Below, in pieces: positions 9,858-26,716 of a stretch of DNA of 64,000 nucleotides; the first letter of the stretch is position 1, and each line of letters opens with the position of its first letter. The DNA lies in assembly GCF_029873215.1 (NCBI RefSeq), contig NZ_CP123620.1, forward strand, positions 2,108,001 through 2,172,000, read 5' to 3'. The notes beneath the pieces were generated by a model. It did no database searches, was not told where the DNA came from, and saw only the letters and a program-made list of their open reading frames with translations. The position numbers and the translations under genes are program-made. The stretch is from Nocardioides sp. BP30. Its GTDB lineage: Bacteria; Actinomycetota; Actinomycetes; Propionibacteriales; Nocardioidaceae.

Positions 9858-9891
9858 GTAACGTCGCTCGTAACGGCCCGGATTAGATGCT
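9858..9891 (+). promoter_or_regulatory. Direct-repeat operator A with -10 element (phyH operon)
   Basis: GTAACGtcgctcGTAACG at 9858-9875 is two perfect hexamers with a 12-bp period. After exactly 10 nt comes GATGCT (9886-9891), an nAnnnT -10-like hexamer. The site starts 6 nt after the second regulator's stop and lies 65 nt before the dioxygenase ATG. The repeats would cover the -35 region, the placement used by SARP-type activators. Confidence 0.7.
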
Positions 9892-9940
9892 CGTGGCGTT
9901 CGCCGTCGGCTGGCGACCACGATGCGAAAGGGCTATGAGC

Positions 9941-10891
9941 ATGTCGTATGCAATGAAGGAACTCGAAGAGCACAACCATCTGCTGGGCGACCCCGAGGCG
10001 CTCAACAAGGTCTTCGAGGAGGAGGGCTACCTCTACTTCCGCGACGTCTTGGACAAGGAGGCCGTCGAGGAGGTCCGTGCGAAGTACTTCTCGGTGCTCG
10101 TCGACGACTATGGCGTGGTCGACCCCGGCCAGGACCAGCCGATCTGGAACGGCAAGGACGTCAGCTCCTTCCCGGTGAAGGTCCCCGAGGTCTACGGATC
10201 GGGCACCTACGAGCGCTTCGTCGCCAACCCGGCCATCACCAGGTTCTTCGAGGACGTCGTCGGTGAGCCCATCTCGTGGATCCCGAGCACCGAGTATCGC
10301 CTGAACCCGCCGGTCGCCGAGAAGCCCGAGGACCCGGTGGCCGGGCGTCACCAGGACGGCTTCTTCAACAACGGCTACAACTTCCGGATCTGCTGGATCC
10401 CGTTCGCCGACATCGACGAGGAGATCGGTGGCCTCGCCATCGCTCCGGGCGCGCACAAGCGCGGCTACCTGCACGACGCCTCCGATGCTCCGAAGTTCCC
10501 GATCCCGGCAGGCGCCATCGCCGACGACGAGTGGGCTCGCCCGAAGGTCTACCGGGCCGGCGACGTGCTCATGTTCAGCACCAAGACCCCGCACAGCGGT
10601 CTGGCCAACCTCGGCAAGGCGTTCCGGCTCTCGATGGACGTGCGATTCTCGACGGCCAACGACCCGCAACCGGTCATCGGCGACCTGATCGAGGTCACCA
10701 GGGACTCGATCACGCTGGACACCTCCGTGGGGGCGGTCAGGCTCGTGGTCGACGAGGACACCTACCTGCGCCTCAAGGACGGTGCCCGACTCCCGAACGA
10801 GGAGATCGAGACGCTGCTGCACATCGGCGACCCGCTGATGGTCGGCGCCCAGGACGGTCGGGCTGTTCTGATCCGCCCGCAGAAGGGCTGA
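9941..10891 (+). CDS. Phytanoyl-CoA dioxygenase (PhyH) family protein
   Basis: A 316-aa Fe(II)/2-oxoglutarate oxygenase of the PhyH family. The facial triad is visible: His137 and Asp139 in GRHQDGFFNN, and the distal His218 in TPHSGLANLGKAFRLSMDVRF, whose Arg would bind 2-oxoglutarate. The second of two close ATGs (9935, 9941) is preferred because AAAGGG lies 8 nt before it. PhyH enzymes often hydroxylate the alpha carbon of branched acyl-CoAs, bypassing a beta-methyl block; other members act on small molecules, so the substrate is open. It is first in the operon driven by operator A. The last about 65 residues (DSITLDTSVGAVRLVVDEDTYLRL...) look like an added small domain. Confidence 0.82.
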   Translation: MSYAMKELEEHNHLLGDPEALNKVFEEEGYLYFRDVLDKEAVEEVRAKYFSVLVDDYGVVDPGQDQPIWNGKDVSSFPVKVPEVYGSGTYERFVANPAITRFFEDVVGEPISWIPSTEYRLNPPVAEKPEDPVAGRHQDGFFNNGYNFRICWIPFADIDEEIGGLAIAPGAHKRGYLHDASDAPKFPIPAGAIADDEWARPKVYRAGDVLMFSTKTPHSGLANLGKAFRLSMDVRFSTANDPQPVIGDLIEVTRDSITLDTSVGAVRLVVDEDTYLRLKDGARLPNEEIETLLHIGDPLMVGAQDGRAVLIRPQKG

Positions 10892-10893
10892 CC

Positions 10894-11343
10894 ATGGCCG
10901 ACGTGTCGCCGCCCGCCGGGCCGGCCACCACCCCGTCCTACGCCGACCTCCTCGCTGTCGGGGAGCAGATCTTCGGCCTCGCGCGGGTCGGCGACACCGA
11001 GACACTGGTCGCGCTGGTCGACCGGGGGGTTCCGGTCGACCTGCGTGACGCCGCCGGCAACTCGCTGCTGATGATGGCGGCGTACCACGGGCATGCCGAG
11101 GCCACCGCTGCTCTCGCGGGGCGCGGAGCCGATGTCGATCTGCTCAACGATGCGGGTCGCTCGCCCCTCGCCGGCGCCGTCTTCAAGGGTCACGACCAGG
11201 TCGTGCGCGTCCTGGTCGGCCACGGAGCCTCGCCGTACCGGGGGGCGCCCAACGCGATCGCCACAGCGCTCGCCTTCGGCCGCACCGACCTCGAGCGGAT
11301 GCTGCGAGGAGCAGGGGCCACGGATGCCAGGAAGAAGGATTGA
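10894..11343 (+). CDS. Ankyrin repeat protein
   Basis: A 149-aa protein with about three ankyrin repeats: GNSLLMMAAYHGHAEATAALAGRGADVDLLNDAGRSPLAGAVFKGHDQVV and flanking units, with the typical TPL/AA/GH...V..LL.GA pattern. There is no signal peptide or membrane segment. It begins 2 nt after the dioxygenase stop and ends 2 nt before the aldehyde dehydrogenase start, so it is made from the same mRNA. Bacterial ankyrin proteins of this size are sometimes partners of redox enzymes (for example beside catalases); here it may scaffold or chaperone the dioxygenase or dehydrogenase. That role is inference. Confidence 0.82.
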   Translation: MADVSPPAGPATTPSYADLLAVGEQIFGLARVGDTETLVALVDRGVPVDLRDAAGNSLLMMAAYHGHAEATAALAGRGADVDLLNDAGRSPLAGAVFKGHDQVVRVLVGHGASPYRGAPNAIATALAFGRTDLERMLRGAGATDARKKD

Positions 11344-11345
11344 GG

Positions 11346-12812
11346 ATGGACACCCGCACCTCCTATGACGAGCTGTTCATCGACGGTCGCTGGGCGCCGA
11401 GCCGCAGCGAGGAGGCCACCGCGGTGGTCAACCCCGCCACCGGTGCAGCGTTCGGTCGTGTCCCGCGGGGCGCCGTCGCCGATGTCGAGGCAGCCGTCGC
11501 CGCGGCGCGGCGGGCCTTCGACGAGGGCCCGTGGCCGACCATGTCGGCGCGCGAGCGCAGCGCCGCTCTGCTGCGGTTCGCCGACGTCCTGGAGTCGTGG
11601 CGCGACGTGGTCGAGCCGGTGATCCGGCTCGAGTCCGGGGCGCTTCCGTCGCTGATCGAGGCGACTCACTTCGGCATCGGACTGGCCAGGTTCCGTTACG
11701 CCGCCGAGAAGGCACTCACCTCCTTCGACACCGTGACGCCGTTGCAGGTCGGCCCCGGCGACGTGCTCGGCGCCTCCGCGCTGCTGCACCAGCCGATCGG
11801 AGTGGTCGGAGCGATCACGCCGTTCAACTTCCCGCTCTACCTCAATCTCGCCAAGCTCGGGCCGGCCCTCGCGATGGGCAACACCGTCGTGCTCAAGCCG
11901 TCGCCGCTGACGCCGCTCGAGGGCCTCGTCCTCGGTGCCGTCGCCGCCGAGGCCGACCTGCCGCCCGGGGTGCTCAACGTCGTCACCGGCGAAGGCGACG
12001 TGGGCGACGCGCTGGTCACCGATCCGCGCGTCGACATGATCAGCTTCACCGGCTCGGAGGCGACGGGCAGCCGGGTGATGGCCAGCGCCAGTGGCACCTT
12101 GAAGCGCGTCGTGCTCGAGCTCGGCGGCAAGTCGGCGATGATCGTGCGCGAGGACGCCGACGTCGAGGCGGCCGCTGCCGCGGCGTTCGGCAGCTTCACG
12201 CTGCATGCCGGGCAGGGATGCGTGCTCCTCACCCGCCATCTGGTCCACCGTGCGGTCGCCGACCAGTTCCTGGCCGAGCTCGACCGGCGCGTGCGCGCGA
12301 CGGTCGTCGGCGACCCCGAGGACCCGAGCACCACCATGGGTCCCCTGATCTCGGCCGCACAGCGCGAGAAGGTGCTCGGCTACATCGACGCGGGGGTCGG
12401 CGACGGAGGCACCGTCGCCGCTCGCGGTTCCGATGTGGTCTCGGACGGCTTCTTCGTCCCGCCGGTCGTGCTCAGCGACGTGCCGGCCACGTCGCGAAGC
12501 GTGCAGGAGGAGATCTTCGGGCCGGTCGCGGTCGTTCTTCGTTTCGACGACGACCACCAGGCCGTCCGACTCGCCAACGACAGTCGCTACGGCCTGTCCA
12601 GCGCCATCTTCAGCGGCAACGGCGGCGCGGCCTGGCGGATGGCGCAGCGGCTGCGCACCGGTGGCGTCCGGATCAACGGCGGCGGGACGGCGCTCGACCT
12701 CGACGCGCCGACGACCGGCTGGAAGACCTCCGGACTCGGCACCGAGCACGGGATCCCCGGATTGATGGAGTACACGCTCTCGAAGACTGTCGCCTTCAGG
12801 GCCGGACGATGA
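11346..12812 (+). CDS. Aldehyde dehydrogenase family protein
   Basis: A 488-aa NAD(P)-dependent aldehyde dehydrogenase of normal family length. Visible motifs are the PFNFPLYLNLAKLGPALAMGN cofactor region, LELGGKS with the general base, and the catalytic Cys292 in HAGQGCVLL. The ATG at 11346 is preferred over an in-frame TTG at 11340 because AAGG is about 8 nt upstream. It oxidises an aldehyde to the acid, presumably after the P450 and alcohol dehydrogenase steps encoded further on. Its stop codon lies inside a perfect 17-bp tandem duplication. Confidence 0.9.
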   Translation: MDTRTSYDELFIDGRWAPSRSEEATAVVNPATGAAFGRVPRGAVADVEAAVAAARRAFDEGPWPTMSARERSAALLRFADVLESWRDVVEPVIRLESGALPSLIEATHFGIGLARFRYAAEKALTSFDTVTPLQVGPGDVLGASALLHQPIGVVGAITPFNFPLYLNLAKLGPALAMGNTVVLKPSPLTPLEGLVLGAVAAEADLPPGVLNVVTGEGDVGDALVTDPRVDMISFTGSEATGSRVMASASGTLKRVVLELGGKSAMIVREDADVEAAAAAAFGSFTLHAGQGCVLLTRHLVHRAVADQFLAELDRRVRATVVGDPEDPSTTMGPLISAAQREKVLGYIDAGVGDGGTVAARGSDVVSDGFFVPPVVLSDVPATSRSVQEEIFGPVAVVLRFDDDHQAVRLANDSRYGLSSAIFSGNGGAAWRMAQRLRTGGVRINGGGTALDLDAPTTGWKTSGLGTEHGIPGLMEYTLSKTVAFRAGR

Positions 12813-12835
12813 TGAGGACCGGACGATGATGAGGA
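12802..12835 (+). repeat. Perfect 17-bp tandem duplication at the aldehyde dehydrogenase end
   Basis: CCGGACGATGATGAGGA occurs at 12802-12818 and again at 12819-12835. The first copy contains the aldehyde dehydrogenase stop; the second supplies the GAGGAG ribosome-binding site 9 nt before the flavin reductase GTG at 12846. It looks like a recent slippage duplication. Confidence 0.85.
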
Positions 12836-12845
12836 GTGGTGTCAG

Positions 12846-13412
12846 GTGAACACCGTGACCACCGGGCACGCCGGAGCCGGCGAGCTCACCCCGCAGGTGC
12901 TGCGCACCGCGTTCGCTGCCTTCCCGAGCGGCGTCACCGCCGTGGCCGCGATGGTGGACGGCCGGCCGATGGGGATGGCGGCGAGCTCGTTCACGTCGGT
13001 GTCCCTGGAGCCGGCGCTCGTGTCCGTCTGCGTCGCCCATACCTCCTCGACCTGGAAGCTCCTGGCAGCGGCTCCGCGGATCGGCGTCAGCGTGCTCGCC
13101 GAGCACCACGGTGAGACCGCGCGGAGCCTCGCCGCGCGCGGCGAGGAGAAGTTCGCGAACGTCGAGTGGTCCGCTGACGAGGCCGGAGCGATCTTCATCC
13201 ACGACTCTGCGCTCTGGCTGCGCTGCTCGATCCACGACGCCATCGCCGTCGGCGACCACGACATCGTCGTCCTCGAGGTGGAGTCGCTCGACCGCTTCGA
13301 GGGCGTGGCGCCGATGGTCTTCCACGGCAGCGGCTTCCACGGCATGAGCCGCGGGACCAAGCGCGTTCCGCTGCGCAACGGCTGGGGCTGGGAGTTCGAT
13401 CCCTTCTCCTGA
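12846..13412 (+). CDS. Flavin reductase family protein (FMN-binding split barrel)
   Basis: A 188-aa flavin reductase-like protein: AFPSGVTAVAAMVDGRPMGMAASSFTSVSLEPALVSVCVAHTSSTW is the hallmark split-barrel FMN region, followed by RIGVSVLAEHHGETARSLAARGEEKFANV. Such proteins give reduced FMN to a partner monooxygenase; a candidate partner in the island is the luciferase-family protein at 27.9 kb. The GTG start has GAGGAG 9 nt upstream. It is the last gene of its operon and is followed by a strong terminator. Confidence 0.87.
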   Translation: MNTVTTGHAGAGELTPQVLRTAFAAFPSGVTAVAAMVDGRPMGMAASSFTSVSLEPALVSVCVAHTSSTWKLLAAAPRIGVSVLAEHHGETARSLAARGEEKFANVEWSADEAGAIFIHDSALWLRCSIHDAIAVGDHDIVVLEVESLDRFEGVAPMVFHGSGFHGMSRGTKRVPLRNGWGWEFDPFS

Positions 13413-13417
13413 TCGAC

Positions 13418-13464: not shown

Positions 13465-13516
13465 GGTGGTCGCTCTCGCTGCCGGGGTCGGTGCCGATGC
13501 CCGCAGCGGGGTCCGC

Positions 13517-15229
13517 TCAGGAGTGGTCGACACCCGATCCGGACGTCGCGCCGGCGAGCCGCTCGGGCCAGAGCGCTGCGGTGATCACCGCACGCTGCGC
13601 CTCGGTGTCGACCACCTTGACGCGCGGCCGGCCCGACTCCCGGCCGGCCTTCTTCTCGTGTGCGTCGAGCGCCGTCCAGCCGGCGACGGTGATGGTGTCG
13701 GGGAGCAGCTCGGCGATGTCGCCAGGCTGCGACGGCGCCGGCAGCTCGCCCGCGAGGAAGTCGTCGAGGAGGGCGTCGGTCGTCTCCGTCGCGCAGTGCC
13801 GGTTGGTGCCGATCGTGCCCTGGGGGCCACGCTTGGCCCAGCCGGTGACGTAGAGGCCTCCGCGAACGGCGCCCGTCTCGGGGTCCAGGACGCGACCGGC
13901 GGTGTTCGGGACCAGCCCCCTGGCCTCGTCGAAGGGCAGCGAGCCCAGGCGCACCGACCGGGAGCCGATCGCGCTGATCACCAGACCGCACGTCAGCTCC
14001 GCGACATCGCCCGGTGCCGTCGACGCCCTGGCGACTCCCGAGGTCGGGTCGATCTCGGTGCGTGCCCACCGCAGGCCCGCGACCCGGTCGGTGCCGGTGA
14101 CGGCGATCGGCGTCCGGCAGAAGTCGAGGACCACCACGAGGCCGGCATCGGCGGGGGCCTCGGTCGGCAGCGCCTCCACCAGCGAGCGCTTGTAGGAGTC
14201 GATCGCCGTGGCTTGCGCCGTGAGCGGCCCGAGCTCCTCGGAACGGACCAACCGCGCACCGAGGGCCGCACGCAGACCGATCAGCTCCGCGACGGTGAAG
14301 GCGGCCATGTCGGCTCCGCGCCGCCCCATCACCCGGATCTCGCGCAGCGCCGTCGCGCTCAGCACGTCGACCGCGTGATCGGCCATGTCGGTGCGACCGC
14401 GCGCCCCGGCGTCGAGGGCCAGCAGCCGGGCGATGTCGAGAGCGACGTTGCCGTTGCCGATGACGACGGCACGCTCGGCATCGATGGCGGGCACGGCCGT
14501 GGCGTGCTCGGGATGACCGTTGTACCAGGCGACGACGTCTGTCGCCGCGTGGCTGCCGGGCAGGTCCTCGCCCTCGATCCCGAGTCGGCGCCCCGCCGGC
14601 GCGCCGACGCCGTAGACCACGGCGTGGTAGCGACGTGCGAGCTCGTCGGGGTCGAGGTCGCGCCCGATCTCGACCCCGAGGAACATCCGAACGCGGTCGT
14701 TGCGCCAGGCGCGCTGGTAGGTGTCGGCGACCTGCTTGGTCGACTGATGGTCCGGGGCGACTCCGAAGCGGACGAGCCCGGTCGGGGTGAGCAGCTTCTC
14801 GAACACGTCGATGCGCACGTCCAGACCGCGCTGGGCCAGGAGGTGCTGGACGGTGTAGCTGGCCGCTGGTCCGGTTCCGACGACAGCGACGCGCAGCGGT
14901 CCCGTCGATCCCTCGGCACTCCACTGTCGGCGGACGGGCCCGGGGTGCGGGACGTGGTCGTAGTCACGGCGCCCGGGTTCGTCGAAGTACGCCGCGTTGA
15001 GCTCGACGAACGGCATCGACTCGGGCGGGAGGTCGTAGTCGGGCTCGATCGCGTTGACCGGGCACTCGACCACGCAGGCACCGCAGTCGATGCACCCCTC
15101 CGGGTCGATGTAGAGCATCTCCGCGGTCAGATAGTCCGGCTCGTCGGGAGTCGGGTGGATGCAGTTCACCGGGCAGACCGGGACGCAGGCCGCGTCGTTG
15201 CAGCACTGCTGGGTGATCACGTGGGTCAT
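13517..15229 (-). CDS. fprB: Ferredoxin fused to ferredoxin-NADP reductase (FprB-like)
   Basis: A 570-aa fusion. Residues 1-60 are a two-cluster ferredoxin (cysteines in CCNDAACVPVCPVNC and GCIDCGACVVECPVNAI), and the rest is an adrenodoxin-reductase-like FAD/NADP oxidoreductase (VAVVGTGPAASYTVQHLL for FAD; VVIGNGNVALDIARLL for NADP). Length and layout match mycobacterial FprB. It would pass electrons from NADPH to the small ferredoxin and P450 of the island. It has its own direct-repeat promoter (operator C) between it and the SDR upstream. The symbol is by similarity of architecture. Confidence 0.85.
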   Translation of the reverse strand: MTHVITQQCCNDAACVPVCPVNCIHPTPDEPDYLTAEMLYIDPEGCIDCGACVVECPVNAIEPDYDLPPESMPFVELNAAYFDEPGRRDYDHVPHPGPVRRQWSAEGSTGPLRVAVVGTGPAASYTVQHLLAQRGLDVRIDVFEKLLTPTGLVRFGVAPDHQSTKQVADTYQRAWRNDRVRMFLGVEIGRDLDPDELARRYHAVVYGVGAPAGRRLGIEGEDLPGSHAATDVVAWYNGHPEHATAVPAIDAERAVVIGNGNVALDIARLLALDAGARGRTDMADHAVDVLSATALREIRVMGRRGADMAAFTVAELIGLRAALGARLVRSEELGPLTAQATAIDSYKRSLVEALPTEAPADAGLVVVLDFCRTPIAVTGTDRVAGLRWARTEIDPTSGVARASTAPGDVAELTCGLVISAIGSRSVRLGSLPFDEARGLVPNTAGRVLDPETGAVRGGLYVTGWAKRGPQGTIGTNRHCATETTDALLDDFLAGELPAPSQPGDIAELLPDTITVAGWTALDAHEKKAGRESGRPRVKVVDTEAQRAVITAALWPERLAGATSGSGVDHS

Positions 15230-15301: not shown

Positions 15302-15335
15302 ACGCTAGGGCAGCTGGGGTTACGGGTGGCGTTAC
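15302..15335 (-). promoter_or_regulatory. Direct-repeat operator C with -10 element (fprB-like gene)
   Basis: On the minus strand GTAACGccacccGTAACC runs from 15335 to 15318: two hexamers, 12-bp period. Ten nt later is TAGCGT (15307-15302), a good -10. The gene starts at 15229. The orientation relative to the gene is the same as at operator A. Confidence 0.7.
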
Positions 15336-15367: not shown

Positions 15368-16108
15368 TCACATGAAGCGGCCCCCGGAGACTTCGAGGGT
15401 GGCTCCGGTGACGTAGCTGGCCATCGAGGACCCGAGGTAGACGGCAGCATCGGCGATCTCGGCCGGACGGCCGAGGCGGCCCAGCGGGATGTCCGCCGCC
15501 CGGCGGGCGAGGTCGTCCGGGCTGAGCTGTGCCGCCATCGCCGTCTCGATGATGCCCGGCAGGATCGCATTGACCCGGATGCCGTCACCGGCGAGCTCCT
15601 TCGCCGCGGCCTTCGTCAGGCCGATGACGCCGGCCTTGGCCGCGCTGTAGTTGGTCTGACCCGCGAGTCCGGCCTTGCCGCCGATGCTCGACATGTTGAC
15701 GATGGAGCCGCCTCCGGCTGCCCGCAGCGCCGGAGCGGCGTACTTGATCCCGAGCCAGGCACCTTGCAGATGCACGTCGATCAGGTCGCGGAAGTCGGCC
15801 AGCGTGGCCTCGTCGAGGGCGCAGTTGCGCAGGATGCCGGCGTTGTTGACCAGGATGTCCAGCCCGCCGAAGGCGGAGACCGTCCTGGCCACCAGCTGCT
15901 CCACCGCAACCGGGTCGGCGACATCGCACCCGACACCGATCGCCGCCTCGGTGCCGGAGATGGTGGCGGCGGTGGCGGCTGCCCTGTCTTCGTCGAGGTC
16001 GGCGAGCACGACCCGCGCCCCCTGGTCGACGAACGCGCGGGCGATCGCCTCGCCGAGACCCTGGGCGGCACCGGTGACGATGGCGCGCCTGCCTTCGAGC
16101 AGCTTCAT
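15368..16108 (-). CDS. Short-chain dehydrogenase/reductase
   Basis: A 246-aa classical SDR: cofactor motif TGAAQGLGEAIA near residue 12, ILVNNAGIL, catalytic YSAAK, and the C-terminal GRLGRPAEIADAAVYLGSSMASYVTGATLEVSGG. An acidic residue after the second strand (LADLDED) points to NAD(H). It may oxidise a 3-hydroxyacyl-CoA or an alcohol intermediate of the island pathway. It is the last gene of the minus-strand operon that starts with the ferredoxin at 18160, 16 nt after the small conserved protein. Confidence 0.88.
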   Translation of the reverse strand: MKLLEGRRAIVTGAAQGLGEAIARAFVDQGARVVLADLDEDRAAATAATISGTEAAIGVGCDVADPVAVEQLVARTVSAFGGLDILVNNAGILRNCALDEATLADFRDLIDVHLQGAWLGIKYAAPALRAAGGGSIVNMSSIGGKAGLAGQTNYSAAKAGVIGLTKAAAKELAGDGIRVNAILPGIIETAMAAQLSPDDLARRAADIPLGRLGRPAEIADAAVYLGSSMASYVTGATLEVSGGRFM

Positions 16109-16124
16109 GTTCTCGTCCTCTCGA

Positions 16125-16448
16125 TCAGTCGCTGGCGGGCAGCGGCTTGGCTTCGCGGAGCTCCAGCGGGGTCGGGCCGTCGCCGAGGGTTCCGGCGCCG
16201 GCCTTGGTGACGAGCACCTCGAAGGTGGGGTCGGTCGGGGACGTGTAGCGCTTGCCGATCGCGTTGCCGCTCATCAGCGTCACATCGGCGGCCGCAGCGA
16301 CCGAGCCGGCGCCGGTCGCGGCGTCGATCGCGACGAGTGGGAGTCCGCCACAGGTCGGCTCCACGGAACCGTCACCGGCACGCACGACGACCACCTCGGT
16401 CGCGCAGACCTGGCTGCGCAGGCGCTGGCCGGGGGAGAGCTGGGTCAT
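16125..16448 (-). CDS. Small conserved protein of unknown function
   Basis: A 107-aa protein beginning MTQLSPGQRLRSQVCATEVVVVRA and ending VTKAGAGTLGDGPTPLELREAKPLPASD. I recall similar proteins beside acyl-CoA synthetases in actinobacteria, but no function. It has two Cys (VCATEV and EPTCGG), no signal peptide and no membrane segment. Its ATG sits 1 nt after the stop of the acyl-CoA synthetase, so the two are translationally coupled. An accessory role for the synthetase or its substrate is a guess. Confidence 0.75.
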   Translation of the reverse strand: MTQLSPGQRLRSQVCATEVVVVRAGDGSVEPTCGGLPLVAIDAATGAGSVAAAADVTLMSGNAIGKRYTSPTDPTFEVLVTKAGAGTLGDGPTPLELREAKPLPASD

Positions 16449-16449
16449 G

Positions 16450-17952: not shown

Positions 17953-17956
17953 GTCC

Positions 17957-18160
17957 TCAGCCGACTTCCGTGAGAAGGATCGCACCCTCCGGGCAGGCGG
18001 TCGCTGCGCGTCGAGCGGAGGCGCAGTCCGCCTCGCCGGTGACGGCCGTGCGCAGCGCGACGGCGTACCCCTCGTCATCGGGCTCGAACAGGCCCGGCTC
18101 CAGCACGTAGCAACGCCCGTGGCCGGAACACTTCTCCGAGATCTCGATCCCAAGAGACAT
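17957..18160 (-). CDS. [3Fe-4S]-type ferredoxin (P450 partner)
   Basis: A 67-aa ferredoxin: CSGHGRC near residue 11, a long gap to a third ligand region (EADCASARRAATACPEGAI), the pattern of single-cluster 3Fe-4S ferredoxins that reduce actinobacterial P450s. AAGGAG lies 8 nt before the ATG. It heads the minus-strand operon with the acyl-CoA synthetase and SDR, and its promoter carries operator D. The P450 itself is about 6.5 kb away under the same kind of operator, which supports a shared electron chain. Confidence 0.88.
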   Translation of the reverse strand: MSLGIEISEKCSGHGRCYVLEPGLFEPDDEGYAVALRTAVTGEADCASARRAATACPEGAILLTEVG

Positions 18161-18236: not shown

Positions 18237-18270
18237 ATCCTCGGCGCGGTCGCGTTACGGATCGCATTAC
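18237..18270 (-). promoter_or_regulatory. Direct-repeat operator D with -10 element (ferredoxin operon)
   Basis: On the minus strand GTAATGcgatccGTAACG runs 18270-18253: one hexamer with a single mismatch, one perfect, 12-bp period. After 10 nt comes GAGGAT (18242-18237). The ferredoxin starts at 18160. It forms the left half of a divergent control region with operator E. Confidence 0.65.
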
Positions 18271-18336: not shown

Positions 18337-18370
18337 GTAACGGACCGATTAACGAGACCTCGCGGACCGT
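18337..18370 (+). promoter_or_regulatory. Direct-repeat operator E with -10 element (ABC transporter)
   Basis: GTAACGgaccgaTTAACG at 18337-18354 has a 12-bp period; after 10 nt comes GACCGT (18365-18370). The binding-protein gene starts at 18461. Operators D and E are back to back in the 300-nt divergent gap (18161-18460), in which I see no gene. Confidence 0.65.
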
Positions 18371-19612: not shown

Positions 19613-19631
19613 TCCGACTCCGCAGGCAGGC

Positions 19632-19675
19632 CCGTTACCGGGCGGGGCGAAGCCCTTCCGGGCGCCCGGTAACGG
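19632..19675 (+). promoter_or_regulatory. Intercistronic hairpin between binding protein and ATPase genes
   Basis: A perfect 13-bp inverted repeat (19632-19644 with 19663-19675) with an 18-nt loop lies 20 nt after the binding-protein stop. Such hairpins can end part of the transcripts or protect the 3' end, giving more binding protein than ATPase. Its right arm ends in GTAACGG, the first hexamer of operator I. Confidence 0.75.
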
Positions 19676-19702
19676 CACGGCAAACGCATCCGCGCCGATG
19701 GT
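19669..19702 (+). promoter_or_regulatory. Candidate direct-repeat operator I with -10 element (ABC ATPase)
   Basis: GTAACGgcacggCAAACG at 19669-19686 keeps the 12-bp period, though the second copy is degenerate (AACG kept). After exactly 10 nt comes GATGGT (19697-19702). It would give the ATPase-permease-SDR genes (start 19769) a promoter of their own. The first hexamer is also part of the hairpin arm, so chance is harder to exclude than at the other sites. Confidence 0.45.
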
Positions 19703-19768
19703 GGACCCATCGGATGAGACGCGTGTCACATCCACGTCCGCAACCATGAGACCCGAGGGGACTTGATC

Positions 19769-21352
19769 ATGTCGATCACCCACACCCCGCCCGACCTGAC
19801 CGGTGTCCGGCTCCGCGCCGTGTCCAAGACGTTTCCCGGGACCAAGGCGCTCGACCACGTCGATCTCGACGTCCTGCCGGGCGAGGTGCACGCCCTGGTG
19901 GGCCAGAACGGCTCGGGAAAGTCGACCCTGATCAAGATCCTCGCCGGCTTCCACGAGGCGGACCCGGGGTCCACGGCGACGGTGGGCCCGCGCTCGCTCG
20001 ATCTGGGCGACGCCACCGCGGCCCACGACGTCGGGCTCCGGTTCGTCCACCAGGACCTGGGCCTCGTGCTGACCGAGTCGACGGTCGACAACCTCGCGCT
20101 CGGCAGCGGCTACCGGACCTCGCGCGCGGGCCGGATCCGTTGGCGGGCACAGCGCCAACGTGCCAGGGACCTGATGGACACTGTGGGCCATCCGGTCGAC
20201 ATCGACCGTCCGGTCGAGCAGCTCTCCGCCGTCGAGCGGACCGCCGTCGCGATCGCGCGGGCGATGCAGGGATCGGCCGAGTCGATCGCCCTGCTCGTCC
20301 TGGACGAGCCCACCGCGACCATGCCGGCCGGCGACGTCGAGATGGTCTACGAGATCGTCCGCCGGGTACGAGCCTCGGGCGCGTCCGTGCTGTACGTCTC
20401 CCACCACCTCGACGAGGTCTTTGCCCTCGCCGACCGTGTCACGGTGCTGCGCGATGGCCGTCTGATCGACACGCTCGACGTTGCCGACACCGATCCGCGG
20501 GAGCTGGCCGATCTCATGGCCGGTGAGGTCGTCGACGTCGGCGAGCGGGCTCAGCGCGAGCCCGGCCGGCCGGTGCTTGAGATCTCGGGGCTGTCGTGCC
20601 GTGTCCTGACCGGCCTCGACCTCACGGTCCACGCCGGCGAGGTCGTCGGCCTGGCAGGGGTCGACGGCTCGGGTCGCGATGAGGTCGGTGGGGCCGTCTT
20701 CGGAGGTAGGCCGCGTTCGGGCACCGTCAGGTGCTCCGGGGTGGAGCTGCCCGACGGTCGTCCCGATCTCGCCGTCGCGAACGGAGTCGGCTACGTGCCG
20801 GCCGACCGTGTCGCCGCCGGGCTCGTGATGGACATGTCGGTGCGGGAGAACATGACGCTGCCCAGCCTGAGTGACTTCTGGAGAAGGCTGCGGCTGCGCG
20901 TGCGTGACGAGCGTGCGGACGCTACCGCGTGGAGCCGCAGGCTCGGCGTGAAGTCGGCCGGCCCCGAGGCACCCATGACGTCGTTGTCGGGCGGGAACCA
21001 GCAGAAGGTCGTCCTCGGGAAGTGGCTGAAGACAGGGCCGTCAGCGCTCCTGCTCGAGGAGCCCACCCAGGGAGTCGACGTCGCGGCGAAGGCGGACGTG
21101 CACCGCCTGATCGACGAGGCAGCCGCACAGGGTACGGCGATCCTCGTCTGCTCCTCCGACGAGGTCGAGCTCGTCCGCCTCTGCTCCCGCGTGGTGGTCC
21201 TCGACCACGGCCGCGTCAGCACCGAACTCACCGGCGCCGCCATCACGCGCGCCGCCATCACCCGGGCGAGCCTCGGCATCGCCGATCCCGGCCCTCATCC
21301 CGGCCCTCATCCCGGCCCTCATCCCACGCAGAAGAACGGAGCAGGAGCATGA
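19769..21352 (+). CDS. Sugar-type ABC transporter, double ATP-binding protein (RbsA/MglA-like)
   Basis: A 527-aa protein with two nucleotide-binding domains. The first has Walker A GQNGSGKST and Walker B LLVLDEPTA, with a relaxed signature (QLSAVERTAVAIARAM). The second has the degenerate Walker A (GVDGSGRDE) and canonical signature LSGGNQQKV usual in the CUT2 family. ATG 19769 is preferred to TTG 19763, with GAGGGG 8 nt upstream. The C-terminal tail carries three GPHP repeats. Its stop overlaps the permease start (ATGA). Confidence 0.88.
   Translation: MSITHTPPDLTGVRLRAVSKTFPGTKALDHVDLDVLPGEVHALVGQNGSGKSTLIKILAGFHEADPGSTATVGPRSLDLGDATAAHDVGLRFVHQDLGLVLTESTVDNLALGSGYRTSRAGRIRWRAQRQRARDLMDTVGHPVDIDRPVEQLSAVERTAVAIARAMQGSAESIALLVLDEPTATMPAGDVEMVYEIVRRVRASGASVLYVSHHLDEVFALADRVTVLRDGRLIDTLDVADTDPRELADLMAGEVVDVGERAQREPGRPVLEISGLSCRVLTGLDLTVHAGEVVGLAGVDGSGRDEVGGAVFGGRPRSGTVRCSGVELPDGRPDLAVANGVGYVPADRVAAGLVMDMSVRENMTLPSLSDFWRRLRLRVRDERADATAWSRRLGVKSAGPEAPMTSLSGGNQQKVVLGKWLKTGPSALLLEEPTQGVDVAAKADVHRLIDEAAAQGTAILVCSSDEVELVRLCSRVVVLDHGRVSTELTGAAITRAAITRASLGIADPGPHPGPHPGPHPTQKNGAGA
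21287..21322 (+). repeat. In-frame 12-bp tandem repeat in the ATPase tail
   Basis: CCCGGCCCTCAT is repeated three times without mismatch (21287-21298, 21299-21310, 21311-21322) and encodes Pro-Gly-Pro-His units at the very C-terminus. Copy number is likely to vary between strains. Confidence 0.9.
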
Positions 21353-22392
21353 CGCAGAGCGATGTCCGAACCGAGGTTCCCGAGCTTCCCCTCGCTGACG
21401 GCTTTGCTCAGGAGCCGAAGCGACGCGGTCGAGGACCGCTCGCCGGCCTGGGGGTCGACCGGTTCAGCGGCCTCTACCTGATGCTGCTGTTGATCGTGGT
21501 GTACTCGCTGCTCAAGCCCGACACCTTCTTCACCGTCAACAACTTCCGGATCATCCTCGCCAGCCAGGCGATCACCGGCATCCTCACGCTCGGCCTGATG
21601 ATCTCCCTCATCTGCGGCATCTTCGATCTCTCCGTCGCGGCGAACATGAGCTTCTCGATCCTCTTCGTCGGCTGGTTGCAGTCGGCCCACGGAGTCAACT
21701 GGGTGCTCGCCGTGATCCTCACCGTGCTGGTCGGGGCCCTGATCGGGGTGATCAATGCGGTGGTGGTGACGAAGATGCACGTCGACGCCGTGATCGGGAC
21801 CCTCGGTGTCTCCTCGGTGCTCGCAGCGGCGACGTACTGGCTGACCAACGGCCAATCGGTGACGACCGGCATCGACCAGCAGTTCACCGACCTGGGCAAC
21901 GCCAAGTGGCTGACGGTGCCGGCACCGGCGTACATGTTCGCCATCGTCGCGGTGGTGCTCTGGTACCTGCTGAACCACACCCCGACCGGGCGCTACCTCT
22001 ACGCCGTGGGGTCGAACGCCACCGCTTCGCGTCTCGCCGGGCTGAAGGTGCTGCGGCTGCAGTGGTTCGGCCTGATCGTCTCGGCGGTGCTGGCGAGTTT
22101 CGCCGGCGTCGTCTTCACCGCCCAGCTCGGCACGTCGTCGTTCGATGCCGGCGCCCCATTCCTCCTGCCGGCCTTCTCGGCCGCGTTCCTGGGTGCCACC
22201 CAGATCCGACCGGGACGGTTCAACGTGGTCGGCACGGTGATCTCGATCTACCTGCTCGCCGTGGGCATCAAGGGACTCGAGCTGCTCTACCCGGGCCGTC
22301 CGTGGCTCAACGATCTCTTCGAGGGCCTCGTCCTGATCGTCGCTGTCGGGCTCGCCGCCCGGTCGGCGCGTCGTCGCGCCAAGAACGCATGA
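21349..22392 (+). CDS. ABC transporter permease (CUT2/RbsC-like)
   Basis: A 347-aa inner-membrane permease with about eight to ten hydrophobic segments (for example LYLMLLLIVVYSLL, WVLAVILTVLVGALIGVINAVVV, YMFAIVAVVLWYLL). The family's G.R.YAVG.N..A..LAG motif is seen as GRYLYAVGSNATASRLAGL. A 40-aa cytosolic N-terminus precedes the first helix. Start overlaps the ATPase stop by 4 nt and follows GGAGCAGGAG. Only one permease is encoded, so it probably acts as a homodimer. Confidence 0.88.
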   Translation: MTQSDVRTEVPELPLADGFAQEPKRRGRGPLAGLGVDRFSGLYLMLLLIVVYSLLKPDTFFTVNNFRIILASQAITGILTLGLMISLICGIFDLSVAANMSFSILFVGWLQSAHGVNWVLAVILTVLVGALIGVINAVVVTKMHVDAVIGTLGVSSVLAAATYWLTNGQSVTTGIDQQFTDLGNAKWLTVPAPAYMFAIVAVVLWYLLNHTPTGRYLYAVGSNATASRLAGLKVLRLQWFGLIVSAVLASFAGVVFTAQLGTSSFDAGAPFLLPAFSAAFLGATQIRPGRFNVVGTVISIYLLAVGIKGLELLYPGRPWLNDLFEGLVLIVAVGLAARSARRRAKNA

Positions 22393-23231
22393 CCGGCGCA
22401 GGCGGGCCCCTCGCCGGCAAGGTCGCCCTCGTCACCGGCGCCGCGAGGGGTCAGGGACGCAGTCACTGCGAGCACCTCGCCGCCGCCGGTGCGGACATCA
22501 TCGCGATCGACCTGGCGCACCAGCTCGACACCGTGACCTACCCGATGCCCGACGCGCGCGACCTGGCGCAGACGGCAGCCGTCGTCGAGAGCCTCGGTCG
22601 ACGGATCCACGTCGGGATCGCCGACGTGCGCGATGCCGGCGCGCTGAGCTCGGTGATCGAGGAGGGCGTGCGCGTCCTGGGAGGTCTGGACGTCGTGGTG
22701 GCCAACGCCGGCATCTCCGGCTACGGCGGCGTGGGCACCCTGACGCCCGATGCCTGGGACACCATGATCGGGGTGAATCTGACCGGCGTGTGGAACACGG
22801 TCAACGCCTCGATCCCGCACATCGAGGCCGGCGGCCGTGGTGGATCGCTCGTGCTGATCAGCTCGGTCGGCGGGCTGAGGGGCATCCCCAACCTGGTGCA
22901 CTACACCGCGACCAAGCACGCGGTGGTCGGGATGATGCGGACCTTGGCGTTGGAGCATGCGCCGAGCTCGATCCGGGTGAACACCATCCACCCGACGGCC
23001 GTCGCGACCGAGATGATCTTCAACGAGGTCACGATGAAGCTCTTCCGGCCCGATCTCGACGAGCCCACCCTCGAGGACGTGCGGGTGGCGTTCGGCGGGA
23101 ACAACGCGCTGCCGGTGCCGTGGGTGGAGCCGTCGGACGTCAGCAAGGCAGTGCTCTTCCTCGTCTCCGACGATGCCCGCTACATCACCGGGGTCGCGCT
23201 GCCGGTCGACGCGGGCGCACTGCTGAAGTAG
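22389..23231 (+). CDS. Mycofactocin-coupled SDR family oxidoreductase
   Basis: A 280-aa SDR with the special sequence features of mycofactocin-associated dehydrogenases: VTGAARGQGRSHCEHLAAAGADIIAIDL at the N-terminus, then YPMPDARDLAQTAAVVESLGRRI and the longer insert; catalytic Tyr172 and Lys176 in YTATK. In this subfamily NAD stays bound and electrons leave to the redox peptide-derived cofactor mycofactocin. No mft genes are in the window, so they would have to lie elsewhere. The start overlaps the permease stop by 4 nt, making it part of the transporter operon. It probably oxidises a hydroxylated substrate soon after uptake. Confidence 0.82.
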   Translation: MTGAGGPLAGKVALVTGAARGQGRSHCEHLAAAGADIIAIDLAHQLDTVTYPMPDARDLAQTAAVVESLGRRIHVGIADVRDAGALSSVIEEGVRVLGGLDVVVANAGISGYGGVGTLTPDAWDTMIGVNLTGVWNTVNASIPHIEAGGRGGSLVLISSVGGLRGIPNLVHYTATKHAVVGMMRTLALEHAPSSIRVNTIHPTAVATEMIFNEVTMKLFRPDLDEPTLEDVRVAFGGNNALPVPWVEPSDVSKAVLFLVSDDARYITGVALPVDAGALLK

Positions 23232-23252
23232 TCACCCACCGACCGACCCGCC

Positions 23253-23289
23253 GACGGAGGCGCCGACGATCATCGTCGGCGCCTCCGTC
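23253..23289. terminator. Bidirectional terminator
   Basis: A perfect 16-bp stem (23253-23268 with 23274-23289) and 5-nt loop lies between the convergent SDR and ferredoxin reductase genes, serving both strands. Confidence 0.88.
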
Positions 23290-23299
23290 GTATCTCCTC

Positions 23300-24463
23300 T
23301 CAGGAGACCCGCGCCGCCCGCGGCGCCGCCAGCCGCTCGAGCACCTCGTCGATGTCGGTCCCGCGCTGGATGTCGGCACCCAGCCGCATGACGGCCGCCG
23401 GTGCGCCGAACCCGACCGCGCCGGTCAGCCGGCCCTCGCGCGAGTACACCGCCACGGTGCGCTCCTTGGGGCCCCAGGAGAGCAGCTGGGTCTCGTCGTC
23501 GGGGGCGGGGGAGCCCAGGCCCTGGATCCTGAGGCCGTACTGATCGCTCCACCAGTACGGCGCGGTGGCGGGCTCCACCTCCTGCGCCAGCAGGCGCGCC
23601 GCCACGTGGTCGGCCTGCACCGTCGCCGCCGTCCAGTGCTCGCTGCGGTGACCGTCCCAGCGGGCGACGTCACCGACGGCGAAGACTCCGTCCGCGGCCC
23701 GGCCGTCGGCGTCGCAGACGACCCCGTCGAGCAGGGTCAGTCCGCTTCCGGCGAGCCATCCGACGTTCGGTACGCCGCCGACCGCCTCGACCACCACGTC
23801 GGCCTCGATGCGGTGCTCGCCCGCGCGCAGTCCTCCGTCGGTGTCACGACTGATCCTCACACCCGTGTGCAGGTCGACACCCGCGGACCGGTGCAGGTCG
23901 GCCACCACCGCGGAGGTGGTGACGCCCACGACCCGGATCATTGGCCCGTCGAGCACGTCGTGCAGCTCGACGGGGAGTCCCAGTGTGCGAGCGCTGGCAG
24001 CGACCTCGCAGCCGATCAGCCCTGCGCCGATGACGGCGACGGAGCGGGCGCCGACCAGTGCGCTTCGCAGTGCTACGGCGTCCGCACGGGTCCGCAGGAG
24101 GTGTCCGTCGATGCCGGCGATCCGGCGAGGAACGGACCCGGTCGCCAGCACGACGACGTCGGCTCGGTGGGCGCCTCGCGCTGTCGTGACGACACGGTGT
24201 GCGGCGTCGAGCGAGAGCGCCGCCTCGTCGAAGAGCAGGTTGGCCTGCAACGCCGACAGCTCGGTCTGCGAGCGGAGATCGCTCGACACCTCCTCTCCGA
24301 GCAGCACCCCCTTGGAGAGCGGAGGGCGGTCGTACGGCGCGACGGCTTCGTCGCCGAGGAGCGTGAGGGCACCCGTGTAGCCGCGAGCTCGCAGCCGTTC
24401 CGCCACGGTGAGTCCCGCCAGACCGCTCCCGACGACGATGATGGACTTCGGCTGGTCAGTCAT
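23300..24463 (-). CDS. NAD(P)/FAD-dependent ferredoxin reductase
   Basis: A 387-aa pyridine nucleotide-disulfide-type oxidoreductase resembling putidaredoxin reductase: FAD motif IIVVGSGLAGLTVAERLRARGY, PYDRPPLSKGVL, the NAD motif VAVIGAGLIGCEVAASA, and FAVGDVARW. It lacks the CxxC of disulfide reductases. It is divergent from the P450, and its promoter holds operator F-minus with the -10 only 7 nt before the ATG, so the mRNA should be leaderless. It is a second possible electron entry for the ferredoxin-P450 chain beside the FprB-like fusion. Confidence 0.87.
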   Translation of the reverse strand: MTDQPKSIIVVGSGLAGLTVAERLRARGYTGALTLLGDEAVAPYDRPPLSKGVLLGEEVSSDLRSQTELSALQANLLFDEAALSLDAAHRVVTTARGAHRADVVVLATGSVPRRIAGIDGHLLRTRADAVALRSALVGARSVAVIGAGLIGCEVAASARTLGLPVELHDVLDGPMIRVVGVTTSAVVADLHRSAGVDLHTGVRISRDTDGGLRAGEHRIEADVVVEAVGGVPNVGWLAGSGLTLLDGVVCDADGRAADGVFAVGDVARWDGHRSEHWTAATVQADHVAARLLAQEVEPATAPYWWSDQYGLRIQGLGSPAPDDETQLLSWGPKERTVAVYSREGRLTGAVGFGAPAAVMRLGADIQRGTDIDEVLERLAAPRAARVS

Positions 24464-24470
24464 GCGGGTG

Positions 24471-24504
24471 ATGGTGTCGCACCCGGCGTTACCGCGCGCG
24501 TGAC
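24471..24504 (-). promoter_or_regulatory. Direct-repeat operator F-minus with -10 element (ferredoxin reductase)
   Basis: On the minus strand GTCACGcgcgcgGTAACG runs 24504-24487 (one mismatch in the first hexamer, 12-bp period). Ten nt later is CACCAT (24476-24471), then 7 nt to the ATG at 24463. It lies immediately beside the oppositely directed operator for the P450. Confidence 0.6.
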
Positions 24505-24508
24505 GTGA

Positions 24509-24542
24509 ATAACGACGCTGATAACGCCGCCGGTGTGACGCT
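24509..24542 (+). promoter_or_regulatory. Direct-repeat operator F-plus with -10 element (P450)
   Basis: ATAACGacgctgATAACG at 24509-24526 is a perfect direct repeat with a 12-bp period. Ten nt later is GACGCT (24537-24542). The P450 starts at 24616. Confidence 0.7.
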
Positions 24543-24615
24543 CATCATGCTTCGGTCGCCGATTCGTGGGCGCGCTGAGCGGTGACAGCAGTCGAATGAT
24601 TTCGAGAGGCAAGAC

Positions 24616-25800
24616 ATGGACCAGCAGCTCATCGACCACTTCGTCGAGCACTTCGACCACCACGACCCGCGCCTCGGGGCCGATCCGGACGAGGTGTGCG
24701 AGGCGCTCCTGGAGCGGGCGCCGGTGGCCTACAGCGACAAGCACGGTGGCTTCTGGGTCGTATCGGACTACGAGAGCTCCAAGCGGGTCCTCCAGGACGC
24801 GAAGGTCTTCACCAGCGAGGAGGGCGTTCGGGTGCCGAGGGGCGAGGACACCCCGCCGCTTCCGCCGATCGAGATGGACCCGCCGCTGCACAGCAAGTTC
24901 CGCAGCATCCTGGCCCCGGCGTTCTCGCCGCGCAGCATCAACGCGTTGGAGCCCAGGATCCGGGCGCTGACCAACGACCTGATCGACGCGTTCGAGGCGT
25001 CGGGCTCCTGCGACTTCGTGGAGGATCTCGCCGCCCCGCTCCCGACCGGGATCTTCACCCAGATCATGGGGCTTCCGATCGAGGACGCTCCGCGGTTCTA
25101 TGCCTGGAAGAACGTCATCCTGCACGAGTCGCGGACCGACGAGGACTACGAGTCGGCGGCCAGGGCGACGGGCGAGGTGATGGCATACCTGAAGCAGATC
25201 CTCGACGAACGCCGGGTGAACCCGCAGGACGACATCGCCACGCAGATCGTCCAGGCGGAGGGTGCCGGCGAGAGCATCACCGAGGAGGAGCTGGTGCGGA
25301 TGGCCTTCCTGCTCTTCCTGGGTGGCCTGGACACCGTCACCGCAGCCTTGAGCCTGACCTTCACCTACCTCGCCACGCACCCCGACGACCGCGACCGGCT
25401 GGTCAAGGATCCCGATCTCATCCCGACCGCCATCGAGGAGTTCCTGCGCCGCGATGCCGTCATTCTGATCGGGCGGGTGGCCCGGGAGGACGTCGAGGTC
25501 GGTGGACAGCAGATGAAGGCGGGCGACCGCATCCTGGTCAACACCATCGCGGCCAACCGCGACGGCGCCCAGTTCGCGGACGCGGATGAGGTGCAGCTCG
25601 ACCGGGAGGCCAACCGGCACGTCACCTTCGGCCTCGGCCCCCACCGGTGCGTGGGCTCGCACCTGGCCCGGCTCGAGATGCAGGTGGTCCTCGAGGAGTT
25701 CCACCGCCGGATCCCGACGTACCGGCTCGCCGAGGGGTTCACCCCGACCCGTCACATGAACCAGGTCGCCGGCGTCGAAGAGCTCCGGCTCGCTTGGTAG
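24616..25800 (+). CDS. Cytochrome P450
   Basis: A 394-aa soluble bacterial P450. The I-helix carries LGGLDTVTA (residues about 235-243) with the oxygen-activating Asp-Thr, and the heme loop is FGLGPHRCVGSHLA with Cys345 as the iron ligand. There is no membrane anchor. I cannot name the CYP family. In this island it probably hydroxylates the substrate first, with electrons from the 3Fe-4S ferredoxin (17957-18160) and one of two reductases. The hydrolase follows after 2 nt. Confidence 0.92.
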   Translation: MDQQLIDHFVEHFDHHDPRLGADPDEVCEALLERAPVAYSDKHGGFWVVSDYESSKRVLQDAKVFTSEEGVRVPRGEDTPPLPPIEMDPPLHSKFRSILAPAFSPRSINALEPRIRALTNDLIDAFEASGSCDFVEDLAAPLPTGIFTQIMGLPIEDAPRFYAWKNVILHESRTDEDYESAARATGEVMAYLKQILDERRVNPQDDIATQIVQAEGAGESITEEELVRMAFLLFLGGLDTVTAALSLTFTYLATHPDDRDRLVKDPDLIPTAIEEFLRRDAVILIGRVAREDVEVGGQQMKAGDRILVNTIAANRDGAQFADADEVQLDREANRHVTFGLGPHRCVGSHLARLEMQVVLEEFHRRIPTYRLAEGFTPTRHMNQVAGVEELRLAW

Positions 25801-25802
25801 CC

Positions 25803-26687
25803 GTGCCGGCGGTCGGGTCGGTCCGAGACGCCCGACCACCGGTCGGTCGTCCCTCGGCCGGAAGCGTGGAGGTCCAGGGAGCCACCGTGAGGTGGACGCG
25901 GTGGCCCTCGCCGGCGCCGCGACCGGGGAGACCCGGTTCTCGCGAGACCCTCGTCCTCATCCATGGCGCCGCGGCGCACAGCGGGTGGTGGAGCGGGGTC
26001 GCTCCGATCCTTGCGGAGCGCCGGCCCGTGGTGACGCTCGACCTGAGCGGTCATGGGGCCAGTGACCATCGGTCGTGGTACGACGGTGACGTCTGGGCCG
26101 CCGAGGTGGCAGCGGTCGTCGACCGGACCGCAGGCGGGAGCGCCGTGCTCGTCGGCCACAGCATGGGCGGCCTGGTCGCCATCGCGACGGCGGCACGGAC
26201 CCCTGAAGCGGTCGCCGGGCTGGTCATCGTCGATACCCGCCTGCCGCTGCGACGACCGCCGGGGCTGCCTCCGCTGTCAGCGCCGGTCCGGCTCTTCGCC
26301 TCGCCGGAGGAGGCCCTCGCGCGCTTCCGGCTGTTGCCGGCCGAGACCAGCGCGGAGCCGCGACTCCTCGACGCCGTCGCGCGAGCAGGCCTCGGCGAGA
26401 CCGCCGGTGGCTGGCGCTGGCGCCACCACCCGCGAGCACGGCACCGCTTCACCACCGACAGGGTGCGCCGCGACCTCGCCGCGGTCTCGGCACCCATCGG
26501 CTACGTCTACGGCGACCGCAGCACCATGGGTGGCCCGGACTCCCTGGCGTGGCTCGAGGAGGTCCAGGGGCGTCGCATCGAGCGGGGGGTCGTTCCCGGC
26601 GCCTACCACCACGTGCCCCTGGACAGGCCGGTCGACTGCGCCGACGAGGTGGAGTCGGTGGTCAACCGCCTGAGGGTGCGACGGTAA
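25803..26687 (+). CDS. Alpha/beta hydrolase
   Basis: An alpha/beta-hydrolase with LVLIHGAAAHSGWW (oxyanion hole), nucleophile elbow GHSMGG (Ser120 from the GTG at 25803) and a C-terminal YHHVPLDRP with the likely catalytic His. The start is unsure: GTG 25803 gives 294 aa with a Pro/Arg-rich leader; GTG 25866 would remove 21 residues. It may hydrolyse an ester, lactone or ring product formed after oxygenation. Its stop codon (TAA) lies inside the first hexamer of operator G. Confidence 0.82.
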   Translation: MPAVGSVRDARPPVGRPSAGSVEVQGATVRWTRWPSPAPRPGRPGSRETLVLIHGAAAHSGWWSGVAPILAERRPVVTLDLSGHGASDHRSWYDGDVWAAEVAAVVDRTAGGSAVLVGHSMGGLVAIATAARTPEAVAGLVIVDTRLPLRRPPGLPPLSAPVRLFASPEEALARFRLLPAETSAEPRLLDAVARAGLGETAGGWRWRHHPRARHRFTTDRVRRDLAAVSAPIGYVYGDRSTMGGPDSLAWLEEVQGRRIERGVVPGAYHHVPLDRPVDCADEVESVVNRLRVRR

Positions 26688-26716
26688 CGCGGTGGATAAC
26701 GTGACCTTCGTAACTT
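26684..26716 (+). promoter_or_regulatory. Direct-repeat operator G with -10 element (alcohol dehydrogenase)
   Basis: GTAACGcggtggATAACG at 26684-26701, 12-bp period. The -10 is TAACTT (26711-26716), 9 nt on, and 7 nt before the ATG at 26724, so the mRNA is probably leaderless. A third GTAACT (26710-26715) overlaps the -10. The site starts inside the hydrolase stop codon. Confidence 0.65.

Follow-up and report, generated by a model that had tools for sequence, protein, structure and literature searches.

Paired TAACG repeats as probable SARP-type promoter switches of a catabolic island in Nocardioides sp. BP30

In a 64,000-nt stretch of the Nocardioides sp. BP30 genome (contig NZ_CP123620.1, positions 2108001-2172000; hereafter the window), the genes of a catabolic island are preceded by pairs of the 5-mer TAACG, spaced 12 bp from start to start and followed 9 or 10 nt downstream by a hexamer of the form nAnnnT. 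The best explanation, in which we place high confidence, is that the ten sites of this kind are activator-dependent promoters of one catabolic regulon, read by MalT-like/SARP paralogues; very probably, one family of activator proteins reads the paired TAACG switch. A preliminary description, made from the sequence alone, had proposed one regulon under SARP-type activators. This proposal is supported by the genome-wide specificity of the sites, by the predicted SARP fold of the candidate activators, and by the observation that the motif tracks the regulator family and its recognition helix elsewhere.

Paired repeats and the downstream hexamer

We searched the window for TAACG-N7-TAACG followed after a 10-nt spacer by nAnnnT, allowing at most one mismatch. 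All eight pairs of the preliminary description were recovered at the places and on the strands it had given, as exact or one-mismatch matches, with the first T at 9859+, 15334-, 18269-, 18338+, 19670+, 24503-, 24510+ and 26685+ (it had numbered from the G of GTAACG, which lies one base before). As it had also stated, nAnnnT begins exactly 10 nt past the second TAACG in seven of the eight, and the eighth (26685) has TAACTT at 9 nt. Its judgment that this was unlikely to be chance was borne out: the eight matches compare with a mean of 0.01 and a maximum of 1 in 100 dinucleotide shuffles.

Exact matches with a 10-nt spacer occupy 9859..9891 (+; pair at 9859-9875, hexamer GATGCT at 9886-9891), upstream of genes for a PhyH-family protein, an ankyrin-repeat open reading frame (ORF), an aldehyde dehydrogenase and a flavin reductase; 18338..18370 (+; GACCGT), upstream of a substrate-binding protein gene (18461-19612); and 24510..24542 (+; GACGCT), upstream of genes for a P450 and an alpha/beta hydrolase. 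With the same spacer, one mismatch is present at 15302..15334 (-; TAACG/TAACC, TAGCGT), upstream of a fused ferredoxin-FAD reductase gene (13517-15229); at 18237..18269 (-; TAATG/TAACG, GAGGAT), upstream of an AMP-ligase, a 107-aa ORF and a short-chain dehydrogenase/reductase (SDR); at 19670..19702 (+; TAACG/AAACG, GATGGT), upstream of an ABC ATPase, a permease and an SDR; and at 24471..24503 (-; TCACG/TAACG, CACCAT), where the ATG of a ferredoxin reductase follows after 7 nt in a leaderless-like arrangement. The site at 26685..26716 (+) combines an exact pair with TAACTT at 9 nt, and the ATG of a Zn-dependent alcohol dehydrogenase (Zn-ADH), again leaderless-like, follows after 7 nt; a luciferase-like monooxygenase (LLM) class oxidoreductase comes next.

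In the genome as a whole, a single contig of 4,278,108 bases, the 10-nt pattern at up to one mismatch gave 9 matches, all in 2104526-2134717, against 1 for the reversed pattern. With the spacer set to 9 nt there were 3 matches, none of them outside the island sites, against 0 reversed; two are genuine 9-nt sites, and the third is a 10-nt site picked up out of register. Together these are ten distinct sites, all within a 38-kb catabolic island (2096894-2134717); outside it, the 4.28-Mb genome holds no match at up to one mismatch with either spacer. The earlier list of eight thus stands but is incomplete, with two more sites left of the window, at 2104526 (3.5 kb away) and 2096894 (11 kb away). 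The claim of a fixed hexamer place holds in the form of 9 or 10 nt: the spacer is 10 nt at eight of the ten sites and 9 nt at two. A search of 394 genomes of the class, our own among them, for the exact 10-nt pattern gave four matches in our genome, one in each of nine others, and none in 384.

When exact TAACG pairs in the island were counted at all gaps from 0 to 30, six were found at gap 7 and none at any other gap, including gap 6; in five related loci described below, 11 of 12 exact pairs were at gap 7. The period is thus 12 bp and not the 11 (or 22) bp of SARP sites. A G directly precedes the first box in 8 of 10 island sites, and the sequences that separate the two boxes, and the second box from the hexamer, differ among them; because these 7-nt and 9- to 10-nt spacers vary in sequence, the sites are not copies of a mobile repeat. 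According to PMC10936776, SARPs bind direct repeats of 11- or 22-bp period with the 3′ repeat 8 bp from the -10. The placement here appears to agree, the repeats lying over the putative -35 region with the 3′ repeat 9 or 10 nt from the hexamer counted from the 5-mer, or 7 or 8 nt counted by heptamer.

Two arrangements of the boxes were seen in passing. Divergent sites can stand back to back with their first boxes 7-11 bp apart (24503-/24510+ in the window, 8585-/8596+ in L018, 13820-/13830+ in L110), so that up to four activator domains could align on one stretch. In L110, 6388-6416 holds three successive boxes with a 12-bp period, one of them mismatched, reminiscent of the triple heptamers of PimR.

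Over 48 nAnnnT sites, only hexamer positions 2 (A) and 6 (T) are fixed, both of which were required by selection. In 5 of these 48, two of them in the window (24463 and 26724), an ORF of 150 or more codons has its ATG 6-7 nt past the hexamer; no such ATG lies at 0-5 or 8-27 nt, and the remainder start from 28 nt on (GTG and TTG starts were left out of this count). These distances match the pattern of leaderless plus leadered starts and would place the start site where a -10 predicts it.

Candidate activators and their recognition helix

Two adjacent genes of the window encode the candidate activators. Regulator 1 (P0001; 4001..6874, +, 957 aa) has a P-loop/MalT-like N-terminus, a TPR-like middle and a C-terminal SARP domain (piece from 6146; helix RASNYFRQVVFKIREL). 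Regulator 2 (P0002; 6952..9852, +, 966 aa), a paralogue with 38% identity, also has a SARP domain (piece from 9097; helix SAGNHFRQVLFKLREL). The N-terminus matches MalT (8bob, E 1.7e-23) over profile positions 3-325 of alignment A2, a profile of seven relatives, as expected of the ATPase region of large ATP-binding LuxR-type (LAL)/MalT proteins; Pfam scans of the two regulators found no LuxR domain, which in LAL/MalT proteins supplies the C-terminal helix-turn-helix. The C-terminal pieces score 27.1 and, for P0001, 22.7 bits against a Pfam BTAD cut-off of 22.1. In the PDB, a profile of six domains matched EmbR best (E 8e-4), then AfsR (E 0.0024). The model of the P0002 SARP domain, with a mean predicted local distance difference test score of 87.7, has as its best Foldseek match AfsR in a promoter complex (8hvr, E 7.5e-8, template modeling score 0.64), followed by 8k60 (AfsR) and EmbR; the DNA-binding half alone gave no PDB sequence match. 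The P0002 domain model, taken with BTAD in the pieces, is predicted to have the SARP fold of an OmpR-type winged helix plus BTAD. Its position is C-terminal, with the MalT-like region N-terminal, unlike the N-terminal SARP domain of canonical large SARPs (AfsR type) and in reversed order relative to SARP-LAL proteins (PimR type), whose N-terminal SARP domain precedes the LAL half. The label SARP-type given in the preliminary description therefore holds, with the correction that these are MalT-like proteins carrying the SARP domain at the C-terminus.

Our genome has no third regulator homologue at E 0.001, and among 198 genomes of the family (own included), with scoring limited to four candidates in each, four others gave weak matches. 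Searching proteins with the SARP profile yielded 7 of 220-433 aa and no full-length relative; proteins of this domain make-up are present in databases, PF03704 with PF25873 being listed for three of five proteins. We note that the window carries tandem paralogues (4001-9852) and that one regulator was found per relatives' locus. In a midpoint-rooted tree, the duplication falls later than the divergence from the Nocardia-type group and earlier than the branching of P0003-P0005 from P0002; for this tree, P0003-P0006 were taken from gapped alignment rows (lengths 1026 and 1089) and then realigned by the program.

Scanning named genomes with the regulator alignment identified four loci at 32-34% identity, in Nocardia aurantia, Nocardia sp. 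alder85J, a Pseudonocardia metagenome-assembled genome and Prescottella defluvii, and a family search added a fifth close locus, in genome G779. These five loci (L018, L019, L020, L021 and L078) were fetched by regulator similarity alone, without the motif; they contain 4, 4, 6, 5 and 5 pairs at up to one mismatch, against 0.27-0.69 expected from base composition, and in 19 of the 24 pairs an nAnnnT hexamer follows at 9 or 10 nt. The loci from the two Nocardia genomes, being almost copies of each other, do not count as independent. When all 5-mers repeated at gap 7 and followed by nAnnnT at 9 or 10 nt were ranked, TAACG came first with 16 occurrences, in 7/7 loci (two of them the own island), and the runner-up had 3. 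Further loci (L081-L085 and L110-L113) were picked by the motif, and their counts are descriptive rather than proof.

Thirteen loci with weaker homologues served for comparison: L079 and L080, fetched as homologues and empty, and eleven fetched as controls. In 12 of these the helix reads YLRQ (eleven) or YLRM (one), and these sibling loci hold no site in 234 kb, against about 3.5 predicted from composition. The only site among the 13 loci, an exact pair followed at 9 nt by nAnnnT, is in the thirteenth, L104, and the regulator of L104 has the helix SGSNYFRQ, the only N[HY]FRQ helix among them, a test that was unplanned. G1149, a genome that encodes a sibling regulator (L105) in addition to this one, has 7 exact matches against 0 reversed, 5 of them on the contig of the latter; further sites in the neighborhood lie among genes for aldehyde dehydrogenase, a tripartite ATP-independent periplasmic transporter, thiolase, acyl-CoA dehydrogenase, amidohydrolase, SDR and P450. 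Whole-genome scans covered seven genomes with an N[HY]FRQ regulator and three of the nine encountered with sibling helices only; the latter three gave 0 exact matches. In the tree, one long, fully supported branch separates the 11 rows of N[HY]FRQ regulators from the 13 sibling rows; the G1149 regulator adjoins this branch on the N[HY]FRQ side, where the program warns of long branches. For the sibling helices, a de novo repeat search at two regulators found no shared short operator among the 20 largest families listed for each, and word enumeration at gaps 5-7 gave no clear code.

This co-occurrence also bears on whether the repeats are read by some other regulator (TetR, LuxR or a separate SARP), with the MalT-SARP genes as bystanders. 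We regard this as unlikely: although a TetR gene adjoins the regulator in L019, TetR operators are usually palindromes and the TAACG boxes are direct repeats, no other regulator family was recognized in the own island among the scanned part of its ORFs, and the sites track the MalT-SARP clade and its helix.

Several observations weigh against one regulon read by these activators. P0001 and P0002 are indistinguishable as candidate readers, a 12-bp period is unusual for SARPs, BTAD is unlisted in Pfam scans of the whole own regulators, and the P0001 piece barely clears its cut-off. Five of the relatives' 24 sites have TGnnnT, that is, no A at hexamer position 2; each is the partner of a divergent site (L018 16096-, L019 16004-, L020 15955-, L021 15993-, L078 14662-), and in L019, where both neighbors were scanned, the gene following the TGnnnT site encodes a Zn-ADH and that on the opposite side an AMP-ligase. 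At one mismatch, two Nocardia genomes scanned whole give no more matches than the reversed control (G555, 4 vs 4; G556, 5 vs 9), and exact matching in G779 gives 2 forward vs 4 reversed, so that in these three genomes the evidence is the local clustering of sites. Finally, two G1149 pairs lack a hexamer.

Activation model and genes of the island

Whereas the sites, their genome-wide specificity, the linkage to the regulator clade and the SARP fold were computed, we infer binding, activation, inducer, start sites and operon limits. The activators would be one or both of the adjacent MalT-like proteins that carry a SARP domain at the C-terminus. Their N-terminal ATPase/TPR part would sense a pathway inducer together with ATP; two SARP domains would then dock as neighbors on the pair of TAACG boxes, which cover the place of the missing -35 element, and hold sigma region 4 and polymerase at the weak -10 (nAnnnT) 9-10 nt downstream, in the manner of AfsR at afsS, with transcription starting about 7 nt past the hexamer. 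The switch probably feeds back on itself, since the regulator genes appear at the end of the operon beginning at 2104526.

An AfsR-like activation is proposed because the box Ts and the helix residues align with AfsR contacts. As described in PMC10936776, AfsR R92 contacts T-38 and makes the same contact at T-27, the afsS -10 is CACTGT, and sigma region 4 sits on two SARP protomers rather than in the -35 groove. If our hexamer occupies -12 to -7, the Ts of the first and second boxes lie at -39 and -27 with a 10-nt spacer, and at -38 and -26 with a 9-nt spacer. By an indirect mapping through AfsR-sibling and sibling-P0002 alignments, the R92 position is Lys or Arg in 10 of 11 N[HY]FRQ proteins (Gln in that of G1149) and the T88 position is Gln in 11/11.

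It is highly improbable that the TAACG boxes instead form the -35 of an alternative sigma factor, of the extracytoplasmic function (ECF) type or another. AAC is frequent in ECF -35 elements, but here two boxes recur exactly 12 bp apart, the hexamer is separated by 9-10 nt from the second box and by 21-22 nt from the first rather than by about 16-17, the boxes track the SARP helix, and no sigma gene was recognized in the island among the scanned ORFs. Chance, a codon or composition effect or mobile-repeat copies, suggested by short words in G+C-rich DNA and by the two whole genomes not above the reversed control at one mismatch, is already refuted by the controls and retains next to no probability, given 0.01 matches expected in the window, nothing elsewhere in the own 4.28 Mb, spacers that vary in sequence, and the same code beside diverged regulators of other genomes.

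Extending the reading of the sites as activator-dependent promoters, we lean, with clearly less confidence, toward an old, as yet undescribed clade with a MalT-type sensor and a C-terminal SARP domain that runs catabolic islands in several actinobacterial families through the 12-bp code. The N[HY]FRQ helix would then suffice to predict the operator in further genomes, and the duplicate paralogues of the window lineage may share sites as a mixed dimer, one protein per box.

Operons of the island were delimited by spacing and strand. The site at 2096894 lies upstream of genes for aldehyde dehydrogenase, Zn-ADH, an HMGL-like protein, enoyl-CoA hydratase, acyl-CoA dehydrogenase and thiolase. That at 2104526 lies upstream of a CoA-transferase, an AMP-ligase and a further CoA-transferase; the putative operon appears, from spacing, to run on through enoyl-CoA hydratase and two acyl-CoA dehydrogenases (154..3979, +; Pfam) into both regulator genes. 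Pfam also assigned the PhyH-family dioxygenase (9935..10891, +; PF05721; the ORF is listed from 9887, and the start at 9935 is our own reading of the start codons), followed by the ankyrin-repeat ORF (10276-11343, +); the aldehyde dehydrogenase and flavin reductase (11340..13412, +); the ferredoxin-FAD reductase fusion (13517..15229, -; also NCBIfam); the AMP-ligase and SDR flanking the 107-aa protein (15368..18153, -); the ABC importer (binding protein, ATPase, permease) and SDR (18461..23231, +); the ferredoxin reductase (23300..24463, -); cytochrome P450 and alpha/beta hydrolase (24616..26687, +); and the Zn-ADH and LLM-class oxidoreductase (26724..28786, +). The gene set looks like a degradation pathway ending in CoA-ester beta-oxidation. 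An NCBIfam scan for the pathway substrate found that PhyH and P450 resemble pentalenolactone-pathway enzymes only far below the cut-offs.

An ORF of exactly 107 aa adjoins an SDR in the window (16125-16448, -), L018 (17970-18293), L019 (18015-18338) and L078 (16576-16899). The window protein is 61% identical to the L018 and L078 copies and has no Pfam match, suggesting a conserved small partner with no role assigned by Pfam.

Sites also occur away from the regulator locus. In Nocardia sp. alder85J, one lies on another contig (C1:326378), upstream of genes for a binding protein, an ABC ATPase and a permease; in N. aurantia, one lies about 21 kb from the regulator, upstream of a binding protein and an ABC ATPase, the two genes scanned there. 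Over 326 residues, the binding proteins of alder85J and of the window share 56% identity, and in both Nocardia genomes the transporter families are those behind window sites 18338 and 19670. A further alder85J site pair, in L081, has a CoA-transferase nearby. We consider these loci likely targets; having been found through the motif, they are not independent proof.

Relation to known systems

A literature search, in which subscription journals were mostly outside coverage, returned no catabolic regulator with a C-terminal SARP domain and no operator made of TAACG direct repeats. The protein type is already annotated in databases, and its operator and role seem undescribed in the searchable literature. 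The TpdR promoter was considered as a lead and rejected, as TpdR ends in a LuxR helix-turn-helix. The findings tie a short, strict DNA code to a recognizable protein helix across diverged regulators, so that such catabolic regulons can be found by pattern, transporters outside the cluster included, and they offer a set of natural, probably inducible promoters.

Like other LAL/MalT proteins, the regulators have an N-terminal ATPase region, matching 8bob by profile, and a TPR-like middle, and MalT too acts at direct repeats in a catabolic regulon (PMC6099782). The difference is that the C-terminal LuxR helix-turn-helix is replaced here by a SARP domain. EmbR (2fez) has the same OmpR-like plus BTAD fold and, to our knowledge, no MalT-like half. 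It differs in its C-terminal FHA domain (PMC10936776) and is far shorter, at 388 residues in the PDB chain.

PimR, a SARP-LAL protein described in PMC5930380 and PMC10972967, likewise joins a SARP domain to a LAL/MalT-like ATPase half and uses cooperative direct repeats. Its SARP domain is N-terminal, its heptamers have an 11-bp (or 10-bp) period, and it has one target promoter, whereas the present regulators have the opposite domain order and ten candidate sites of 12-bp period. AfsR at afsS (SARP domain, NOD and TPR; PMC10936776) shares the SARP fold, two direct repeats over the -35, the weak nAnnnT-type -10 and, at sites with a 10-nt spacer, the second-box T at the -27 position contacted by R92; it differs in its 11-bp period, its N-terminal SARP domain and its role in secondary metabolism rather than a catabolic island, which here has two paralogous candidate activators.

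In PMC10972967, the SARP types (small, medium, large and SARP-LAL) have N-terminal SARP domains and secondary-metabolite targets, and their sites are 11-bp with one 10-bp exception; since heptamer spacers of 4-15 nt are also mentioned, longer periods would be allowed. PMC5930380 gives 11 bp as the classical unit. What sets the system described here apart from the SARPs of these papers is a period of 12 bp, a SARP domain at the C-terminus and probable targets in catabolism, making it a clean test case for SARP operator grammar in which the period has gone from 11 to 12 bp and the SARP domain stands at the other end of the protein.

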